This document shows positions 26,348-54,746 of a DNA stretch of 64,000 bases, piece after piece. A program made the translations under genes and the position numbers. A model generated the notes under the pieces. The model saw nothing but the letters and a program-made list of their open reading frames with translations. It had not been told where the DNA came from and made no database searches. Position 1 is the first letter of the stretch. Every line of letters begins with the position of its first letter. Source of the DNA: Phycisphaerae bacterium (GTDB taxonomy: Bacteria; Planctomycetota; Phycisphaerae; Sedimentisphaerales; Anaerobacaceae); the NCBI GenBank assembly GCA_030601845.1, contig JAUWAY010000005.1:24792-88791 (forward strand). The letters are read 5' to 3'.

Positions 26348-26382
26348 GTTCGCCCTCGCCCCTCCCGGAGGGGCGGGGTTCG
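26348..26382. repeat. GC-rich palindrome with short flanking direct repeat GTTCG
   Basis: GTTCG-CCCTCGCCCCTCCCGGAGGGGCGGG-GTTCG, 30-bp period between the direct repeats. Confidence 0.65.
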
Positions 26383-42732: not shown

Positions 42733-43782
42733 ATGACCAAAAAGAAATTAAGCAGCAGGGAACGCGTTTTTGCAATGCTCAAAGGCGGGCAGGTTGACCC
42801 CGCCCCTCGGAGGAGCGGGGTTGACCATTTGCCCCTTATGCCCATTACTATGCAATTCGCCGGTGACCTTATCGGCAGAAAATACTATGACTATGCGATG
42901 GACCATAAGGTCCTGGTTGAAGGGCAGTTGAGAGTGGCTGAAGAATTTGACTTCGACTATGTCTCCTGTATATCCGACCCAACGAGGGAGGCGGCAGACT
43001 GCGGAGCAGCGATTATTTATAAAGAGGATTCTCCGCCGGCTATAGATAACCAGAATGCCCTGCTGGCCGATAAAACCAAACTTGCCAGTCTGAAGATGCC
43101 CGATGTTCTTGGCGGCGGCCGAATGCACGACAGGGTCAAAGCAGCCGAGCTTTTTAAGGACAAAGCAGCTAACGACAAAATTATCGAGGGCTGGATTGAA
43201 GGGCCTTGTGCCGAAGGCGCCGACCTGCGCGGTATCAATACTATAATGATGGACTTCTATGAAGAGCCCGAATTTATTCGGGAGCTATTTGAATTTGTAA
43301 TTGAAATGGAATTGAACTTTGCCAGGTGCCAGATTGAGGCCGGCGTCGATTTGATTGGTATCGGAGATGCTGCTGCCTCGCTTATTGGGCCAAAGCTATA
43401 TGAGGAATTCGTCTGGCCTTATGAAAAGCGGCTGATAGACGGCGTTCATAAGCTGGGGGCGGCGGTTCGGCTGCACATCTGCGGCGACACACGAGCTATT
43501 CTCGAAGGTATGGGGCGGCTGGGCTGTGAAATCGTTGACCTGGACTATCTTGCCCCGATTTCTAAGGGCAGGGAAAAGATGGGGCCCGCCCAGGTGCTGC
43601 TCGGCAATATCGACCCCGTATCGGTCCTGCAGGATGGCACAGCCGAGCAGGTCTATCGGGCCATAGAGCAGTGTCATAAAGAGGCGGGCGGCAATTTTAT
43701 TGTCGGTGCCGGCTGTGAAGTTACTCGCAGCACGCCACACGAGAACCTGCGCGTGCTTACAGATTACGCCCTCTCACACTAA
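42733..43782 (+). CDS. Uroporphyrinogen decarboxylase (URO-D/MtaA)-family protein
   Basis: RERVFAMLKGGQVD...PITMQFAGDLIGRKY..., LHICGDTRAILEGMGRLGCEIVDLDY, GNIDPVSVLQDGTAEQVYRAIEQC. Confidence 0.9.
   Translation: MTKKKLSSRERVFAMLKGGQVDPAPRRSGVDHLPLMPITMQFAGDLIGRKYYDYAMDHKVLVEGQLRVAEEFDFDYVSCISDPTREAADCGAAIIYKEDSPPAIDNQNALLADKTKLASLKMPDVLGGGRMHDRVKAAELFKDKAANDKIIEGWIEGPCAEGADLRGINTIMMDFYEEPEFIRELFEFVIEMELNFARCQIEAGVDLIGIGDAAASLIGPKLYEEFVWPYEKRLIDGVHKLGAAVRLHICGDTRAILEGMGRLGCEIVDLDYLAPISKGREKMGPAQVLLGNIDPVSVLQDGTAEQVYRAIEQCHKEAGGNFIVGAGCEVTRSTPHENLRVLTDYALSH
42792..42826. repeat. In-frame GC-rich palindrome flanked by 8-bp direct repeat GGTTGACC
   Basis: GGTTGACC-CCGCCCCTCGGAGGAGCGG-GGTTGACC, 27-bp period, inside the URO-D gene (protein ...GQVDPAPRRSGVDHL...). 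Confidence 0.85.
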
Positions 43783-53146: not shown

Positions 53147-54547
53147 CTACACGTCATACATAATCTTCGCCTTGTCAGGCGTAGCAGGAAATGGGTCGTT
53201 GGTTTTTTGCTTCCAGGCCTCCAGTTCAGCCAAGAGCGCTTCCTGCAGGCCGGCATGCTCAGGCAAATCGACGAGATTATTCATTTCATACGGGTCGTTC
53301 GCCAGGTCAAACAGTTTCGTAGCGGTTTGAATACCCTCTATTGATTCGACCACAAATTTATGCTGGCCCATTATCACAGCCCGCCAGTCTCCCGCCCTCT
53401 CTGCATAGATAGACTCGTCCAGCCCCTCCGAGGGGCGGGACTCGTCCGCCAAACTCCGGCTAACCAGTGCCGCCGCGGACTTGTCCTTTCCGGTACAACT
53501 CCCGGGCGCTTCCAGACCGCATACAGACAGTATCGTCGGCATCAGGTCGATGGAGCTTACCAGGTTATCAACCACCTGACCGTTCTTGAGGCGGCCCGGC
53601 AGCCGCATAATCAGCGGTATATGACACGACTCCTCCTCCGGATGATTTTTATGGTCTATCCCGTGCGACCGTATACAGTCGCCGTGGTCGGCAGTGAAAA
53701 CCACGAGAGTGTTGTCTTCTAATCCTAACTCCTCCAGCGCCTCCATCAAACGACCAAACTCGTGGTCAAGAGAGGTGCATAGTCCAAAGTATTTGGCCAA
53801 ACTACTGCGATTGCCATCCACAACGTTTGGACGAAAAACGATATCGTCCGGGTTGTATATATCAAAACCATCCGGCGGATTGTATGGAGTATGTGGTGGC
53901 CCCCACGAGACGTAACAGAAGAAGGGGCTATTCTTGTTTTGCTTTATAAAATCGATCGCCAGGTCGGTCTGGAACGCCGGCTCGTATTCACCCGATGTGT
54001 ACTGTCCGGTAGTGGACATCGGCACGCCATCGTTAGTAAACGTCGGTGAATCGTAGTAAAAGTGCCCGCGATTGAACCCTTCGTAGGTTGTAAAGCCGCG
54101 ACGCCGCCAGCCCTTGGGAACAAAGCCCGGCTTGGCCTCCCCATCCATATGCCACTTGCCGATGTAGTGACACTTATAGCCCGATTCGCCAAACACCTCC
54201 GCTATGCACCGCTCGCTGGGCGGCAGCATTAAACTATTTGTAATCATACCGCTCTCGTGCGGAAATCGCCCGGTAATAATGGCCGCGCGATTCGGAGTGC
54301 ACAAAGGGTGCGCAGAATAGCACCGAGACCAACGCACACCTTGTTGAGCCATTTTGTCGAAGTTGGGAGTCTGCACCAGCTCATCATGATACGCACCATG
54401 ACTGAACGCGCAGTCCCGCCACTGGTCAGCCAAGATAAACAGCACATTGGTGTGTTTGGCACCGATACGGACTTTCAAAGACCGGTTCGACAGCAGAAAT
54501 CCTCCTGCTGCGCCTGCGCATTTCTTCAAAAAATCACGCCGATTCAT
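53147..54547 (-). CDS. Sulfatase with Tat-like signal
   Basis: MNRRDFLKKCAGAAGGFLLSN; NVLFILADQWRDCAFSHGAYHDELVQTPNFDKMAQQGVRWSRCYSAHPLCTPNRAAIITGRFPHESGM (CxPxR formylglycine motif). Confidence 0.94.
   Translation of the reverse strand: MNRRDFLKKCAGAAGGFLLSNRSLKVRIGAKHTNVLFILADQWRDCAFSHGAYHDELVQTPNFDKMAQQGVRWSRCYSAHPLCTPNRAAIITGRFPHESGMITNSLMLPPSERCIAEVFGESGYKCHYIGKWHMDGEAKPGFVPKGWRRRGFTTYEGFNRGHFYYDSPTFTNDGVPMSTTGQYTSGEYEPAFQTDLAIDFIKQNKNSPFFCYVSWGPPHTPYNPPDGFDIYNPDDIVFRPNVVDGNRSSLAKYFGLCTSLDHEFGRLMEALEELGLEDNTLVVFTADHGDCIRSHGIDHKNHPEEESCHIPLIMRLPGRLKNGQVVDNLVSSIDLMPTILSVCGLEAPGSCTGKDKSAAALVSRSLADESRPSEGLDESIYAERAGDWRAVIMGQHKFVVESIEGIQTATKLFDLANDPYEMNNLVDLPEHAGLQEALLAELEAWKQKTNDPFPATPDKAKIMYDV
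53412..53447. repeat. In-frame GC-rich palindrome flanked by 9-bp direct repeat GACTCGTCC
   Basis: GACTCGTCC-AGCCCCTCCGAGGGGCGG-GACTCGTCC, 27-bp period, inside the sulfatase (protein ...ADESRPSEGLDES...). Confidence 0.85.
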
Positions 54548-54746
54548 TTGTGTCCTCTCCAGATATATTCGAAAGAGCTCCTGCAAAATGCGGAAAATTG
54601 TCATTCCCACACAGCACCCTCAATTCCATTTCATTCTACCATAAAACAACTTTGTTTTCAAGTGCAACCTCCAGGAACTGACACGCACTTCAAGTTTCCT
54701 GCGGGAGAAACTTTGTCTTGAATACCCCCCTTTTCGGAAGTTGATT

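Follow-up and report, generated by a model that had tools for sequence, protein, structure and literature searches.

A 21-bp palindromic element of Phycisphaerae, most probably moved in trans, that adds nine codons to genes

Fungal mitochondria carry byp-like elements and GC clusters, ultra-short mobile hairpins that in some cases lie in frame within genes, and the SDRs of Nostoc and relatives, which are confined to this one bacterial group, are, by the account reportedly given by Elhai and colleagues in 2008, dispersed and recently mobile sequences of 21-27 nt that form hairpins with compensatory changes; we know of no enzyme that moves them. Two papers cite the SDRs of Nostoc and relatives (PMC4390886, PMC3116915), the former stating that the insertion point of SDR5 lies precisely between the third and fourth bases of HIP1. 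Rickettsia palindromic elements (RPEs) are mobile palindromes of ~150 bp that are found, without shifting the reading frame, in numerous unrelated protein genes and are tolerated by the host (PMC10969869); REPs and REPINs are linked to RAYT Y1 transposases (PMC3116915, PMC3733652), slightly more than 10% of REPs being intragenic (PMC3733652); and MITEs measure 70-300 bp (PMC3733652).

Here we describe a 21-bp palindromic element, present in a 64-kb stretch of Phycisphaerae DNA (the window), whose nearest kinds are the cyanobacterial SDRs and the Rickettsia RPEs. The element is like SDRs in size range, in forming a hairpin with compensatory changes, in dispersal, in recent mobility and in confinement to one bacterial group; it is unlike them in belonging to a different phylum, in having a clear target-site duplication with a fixed 27-bp gain, in targeting a degenerate YNNR rather than HIP1, and in lying mostly within genes and in frame, and its sequence apparently differs from theirs as well. 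Like RPEs, it is inserted in frame in many protein-coding genes whose homologues are empty, but it is 21 bp long and always contributes nine codons with a target duplication, whereas an RPE is ~150 bp long and contributes a longer peptide. With REPs and REPINs it shares a short GC-rich imperfect palindrome, high copy number and, as in some REPs, an intragenic location, but it shows no correlation with Y1, lacks the unpaired GTAG or CGTC tag that REPs carry at one end and forms no doublets, and it has a target duplication and is mostly intragenic. With prokaryotic MITEs it shares inverted repeats, a target-site duplication and, presumably, movement in trans; unlike MITEs, which have distinct ends, an interior and a parent IS, it consists of 21 bp with abutting ends, and we detected no longer element that shares its ends. 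The byp-like and GC-cluster hairpins of fungi are organellar, and the Phycisphaerae element shows no bypassing signal. In the literature searched we found neither an earlier description of such an element in Planctomycetes nor a description of the combination of 21 bp, a fixed 27-bp duplicating gain and mostly in-gene, in-frame copies.

Two copies in the window and their empty sites

An earlier note on this DNA reported a palindrome with duplicated flanks inside a sulfatase gene (53147-54610, minus strand), and the arrangement GACTCGTCC-AGCCCCTCCGAGGGGCGG-GACTCGTCC is present at 53412-53447 exactly as claimed. In the register of the family, the element occupies 53419-53439 in minus orientation, reads CCAGCCCCTCCGAGGGGCGGG on the plus strand and CCCGCCCCTCGGAGGGGCTGG on the minus strand, and is organised as CCAGCCCCTC-C-GAGGGGCGGG about a single centre base, with the target duplication ACTCGT (YNNR core CTCG) at 53413-53418 on its left and at 53440-53445 on its right, a direct repeat of period 27. 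The bases that match beyond ACTCGT in the duplicate at 53412-53447 are partly a coincidence. The sister copy placed by the note near 42800 exists as CCCGCCCCTCGGAGGAGCGGG, at 42799-42819 on the plus strand; it is organised as CCCGCCCCTC-G-GAGGAGCGGG, again about a single centre base, and is flanked by GTTGAC at 42793-42798 and 42820-42825, with the same exact 27-bp period that had been asserted for both sites. Both copies lie within real ORFs and keep the reading frame, as the note had it: in the sulfatase gene the element contributes RPSEGLDES (ADESRPSEGLDES), and in a uroporphyrinogen-decarboxylase-like (UroD-like) gene at 42733-43782 on the plus strand it adds PAPRRSGVD near the N terminus.

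Comparison with homologues reveals the corresponding empty sites. RPSEGLDES, which the note expected homologous sulfatases to lack, is unconserved, and sulfatase orthologues in genomes G009, G013 and G035, which are 75-80% identical, are missing exactly nine residues at the site (SLA---------DESIYAE vs. SLADESRPSEGLDESIYAE). UroD-like homologues in G022, G029 and G017 are likewise missing exactly nine residues at the insertion. When 20 coding sites of G022, a related genome of a different genus, were searched in related genomes using one chimeric query, 14 of the 20 proved to have one or more homologues that lack exactly nine residues, at identities of up to 90% (for example, YSYDHICFTQPLGGAGFTEQGTPIK vs. 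YSYDHIC---------FTEQGTPIK in a homologue of 90% identity); the other six sites, which show gaps of different size or two element copies, were left uncounted. G022 and G093 both carry the element at two of the sites and differ at others, and thus insertions both predate and postdate the split between these genomes. The predicted tryptic peptides for the sulfatase site are SLADESRPSEGLDESIYAER if the insert is translated and SLADESIYAER if it is bypassed or excised.

Family, footprint and target

The further genomic copies that the note anticipated are abundant. The window's genome (G000; 1.86 Mb, 75% complete) contains at least 30 element sites at three or fewer mismatches, compared with 0 for a reversed control pattern, and G022 contains ~142. 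Matches occur in 13 of 161 genomes of the order, all of one family, with five or more matches in six; the distribution is patchy even inside genera, and most relatives among the 161 have none. Within single genera, G066 carries the element where its sisters G015 and G067 do not, and G072 carries it where G012 and G069-G071 do not. An exact-match scan of 84,980 species returned 28 stretches, 25 of them from Phycisphaerae/Planctomycetes metagenome assemblies (including RBG_13_46_10), two from Streptomyces and one from Isosphaera; the last three were rejected as family members because the flank repeat is absent. Analogous palindromes of other sequence were sought in four element-free relatives, with none convincing in 400 kb. 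The sole IMG/VR match (L204; IMGVR_UViG_3300033148_006761) is a viral-classed contig on which the element has a perfect GTTAAT duplication; its genes are bacterial (sulfatase, proB), the viral label looks wrong for the element-bearing stretch, and a phage vector was rejected on this ground.

The element consensus, CCCG CCC N TC S GA N' GGGC K GG, spans 21 bp and forms an imperfect palindrome whose arms covary. The position 8/14 pair is C-G, U-A, A-U or G-C, and these compensatory changes fit a hairpin and a dyad-binding protein equally. Many copies share a mismatch at position 3/19 (CCCG...CTGG), which points to copying of the element as a whole and in a given orientation. Half-elements are absent both from the window's genome, in which, at 75% completeness, 27 of 27 arm matches are full palindromes, and from the stretches read, which hold 119 full elements; no longer parent element or insertion sequence with the same ends was found among the same arm matches or in the same stretches. 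A search of four stretches against Rfam returned a tRNA and nothing else.

The footprint was assessed in 88 element copies read in G000 and G022. At least three of the four core flank bases are repeated at period 27 in 82 of the 88, and period-27 identity at positions -5 to -2 is 91, 93, 100 and 99%, compared with 33-50% for shuffled partners. At the outer target positions, -6 and -1, identity is 63 and 67% (z > 6), and elsewhere it is at background level. Given this weaker repetition of the outer bases, the duplication may be 4, 5 or 6 bp long, with a certain core of at least 4 bp. A consensus-free scan based on palindromy and flanking repeat alone yielded 44 cases at length 21 and, by the same criteria, zero cases at lengths 18-20 or 22-35. 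Period 27 is seen in copies judged non-coding too, and therefore is set by mechanism and not by frame selection alone. The fixed-length target-site duplication by which MITEs are recognised thus takes the form here of a period of 27 throughout, a strictly duplicated 4-bp core and partly duplicated outer bases. Position -5 is Y in 81 of the 82 copies with clear repeats and position -2 is R in all of them, the common duplicated cores being TGAA/TTCA, CGAG/CTCG and CCAG; the target is a short, roughly dyad-symmetric R-YNNR-Y, mostly YTCR/YGAR, of which the strict YNNR core is duplicated. Oriented copies show YGAR in preference to YTCR (GA:TC 23:9), a mild orientation effect that a symmetric model does not predict and that hints at a less symmetric process.

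Other arrangements of palindromes were also observed. A longer look-alike (CGCCCCTCCCGGAGGGGCGGG, core CGCCCCTCCCGGAGGGGCG) lies at 26357-26377 of the window, with GTTCG flanks and a period of 30, likewise a multiple of three, and the longer variant recurs at L119:2185; it is a possible divergent relative, was left out of the proven members, and could form a sister length class. G022 has a dispersed repeat of ~90 bp, TGCATGAAGCAAGTTCAC-[element+GTTCAC]-GTAAGTCCTTCAATGACAAGTAGGACGGAGTTTTTCGGGGGGACA, with the palindrome in four of four copies (L128:3990-4084, L128:14996-15085, L133:16372-16466 and L142:14312-14400); one copy has GTTTAC in both target copies, a matched change, and the repeat is possibly a composite mobile unit. 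At G000:C4:17544-17599 (L111:4545-4600) two element copies lie 35 bp apart, one perfect and one degenerate, and thus an old and a young insertion are adjacent.

Host genes and reading frame

Long, coding-scored ORFs make up ~80% of the stretches read and contain 63 of the 88 copies (~72%). Hosts include dapB, ftsK, an AddA/UvrD-like helicase gene, an endonuclease III-like gene and the gene for 2-oxoacid dehydrogenase E2, as well as GH10, GFO/IDH, FGE and IS110 transposase genes. Each in-gene insertion adds nine amino acids with no truncation, because 27 bp correspond to nine codons and because the element, with C as its first base and G as its last, is stop-free in six frames: with all element variants tested, and with any flank, insertion creates no stop codon in any of the six. 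A centre base of A or T would give a stop codon; 90% of shuffled arms of the same composition are also stop-free, and composition alone nearly suffices to account for the property. Copies per reading phase number 13/13/35, compared with 15.7/18.4/26.9 expected, and selection on reading phase was rejected because this bias is largely accounted for by target preference. Copies are rarer inside Pfam domains (8 seen vs. 15.6 expected, P=0.003), a depletion to be read with the caveat that insertion itself can shorten a domain match. In an AlphaFold2 model of the window sulfatase, residues 384-397 form a low-confidence loop (pLDDT<50), and the insert, at about residues 391-399, starts there, at the loop edge.

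Some G022 genes contain several copies. A UroD-like gene (L141:265-1626) and a PQQ/beta-propeller gene (L141:15299-19570) have three copies each, which indicates repeated insertion into one ORF. Three copies are also found in a 278-aa ORF (L127:10387-11223), which by eye looks TsaB-like, near tandem ACGAGCG/ACCAGCG heptamers, a setting reminiscent of the heptamers reported around Nostoc SDRs.

Mode of movement

Our direct observations comprise a family, a fixed footprint with duplication, empty sites, differing insertion ages, an in-gene location and no half-elements, and we regard the mobility of the element and the duplication of its target as near certain. We favour, at a probability of about 0.88, the reading that it is an ultra-short non-autonomous mobile element that makes a target-site duplication and is moved by an enzyme acting in trans. 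According to this reading, the trans-supplied enzyme would cut an R-YNNR-Y target with a 4-6 nt stagger; a copy of the 21-bp element would be joined at the cut, much as in DDE-type strand transfer, with the element serving as two abutting ends; 4-6 bp of target would be duplicated, with the net gain fixed at 27 bp; and the resulting nine-residue insertions in loops and linkers would persist. That the mobiliser is a DDE-type enzyme is a guess, which we offer tentatively and to which the probability above does not extend; a DDE synapse would have to accommodate ends separated by just 21 bp, a sterically unusual arrangement. IS701 makes YTAR duplications, which was the ground for trying DDE_5; this domain was undetected in five carriers (G000, G022, G093, G072 and G066), and the DDE_5 family was rejected as mobiliser, with the proviso that an absent gene is weak evidence in genomes that are for the most part draft metagenome assemblies of 54-98% completeness. 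The mobiliser may differ between sister genomes, because presence or absence of the element differs between them.

Insertion could instead proceed via an RNA copy, by target-primed reverse transcription of a 21-nt hairpin RNA. The stable hairpin with compensatory changes and the target orientation bias are in keeping with such a route, and Elhai and colleagues are said to have argued in 2008 for RNA intermediates in the similar 21-27-nt cyanobacterial elements; however, the RVT_1 reverse transcriptase was undetected in the main carriers (G000, G022, G093, G094 and G072), in a search whose profile misses some reverse transcriptase types and whose genomes are incomplete, and we regard the route as unlikely. 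We are similarly doubtful of break repair, in which an R-YNNR-Y cut would leave 4-6-nt 5' overhangs that are filled by polymerase, and a fixed 21-bp hairpin or duplex oligonucleotide would be ligated. Such repair would yield the fixed 21 + 4-6 footprint and could account for the variable fidelity of the outer target bases, but it requires a dedicated supply of one 21-mer, and the 3/19 mismatch common to many copies implies that whole elements are templated.

The Y1/TnpA_REP mobiliser suggested by the earlier note fares worse. REP/REPIN-type palindromes, mobilised by Y1 (RAYT/TnpA_REP) transposases, are likewise short GC-rich hairpins, imperfectly palindromic and of high copy number, and PVC bacteria such as Opitutus terrae are known to have intragenic REPs (PMC3733652). 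Nevertheless, Y1_Tnp has 0 matches in the window's genome (75% complete) and two weak matches in ~142-copy G022, is abundant in relatives without the element, and does not track the element in abundance; there is no fixed tag, CGTC abutting 14 of 88 copies as part of the variable target and GTAG none of the 88; and copies are as a rule single, not inverted doublets, with the majority noted above in long ORFs. Target-site duplications, moreover, are present, and Y1 transposition (IS200/IS605) is not expected to give them. We conclude that this explanation is very improbable. Still less credible is translational bypassing, in which ribosomes would hop between duplicated codons over the hairpin and the nine residues would never be made. 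An in-frame hairpin flanked by matching codons would suit it, and byp-like mobile elements are reported, by Lang and colleagues in 2014, to have inserted in frame in yeast mitochondria; but no stop codon blocks translation, 27 nt in frame make a bypass unneeded, ~28% of copies are non-coding, and the depletion inside Pfam domains is as expected of a translated peptide. Palindromes arisen by chance, or plain tandem duplication within GC-rich coding sequence, are a negligible prospect, already refuted by the 30 sites against 0 in the control, the restriction of the scan result to length 21 and the nine-residue empty sites, with none in relatives of similar or higher GC; the note's argument that two loci make chance unlikely holds genome-wide, far beyond chance, whereas in the window alone two copies in 64 kb are mildly unusual and could be coincidence, since loose matches arise by chance.

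The trans-mobilised element favoured here is among the smallest mobile DNA elements seen. It is perhaps the smallest target-duplicating bacterial mobile element known, with nine-codon, stop-free insertions spread through genes, including essential ones, at near coding-content density, and with a mobilising enzyme from a class not previously linked to such elements, a reading that we put forward with reserve. It represents selfish DNA whose shortness and exact length suit it to life inside working genes, and it provides a natural insertional-mutagenesis experiment in which nine residues have been added at dozens of protein sites. Because its presence or absence differs between sister genomes, it also offers a clean system that makes the mover of ~20-bp elements a testable question.
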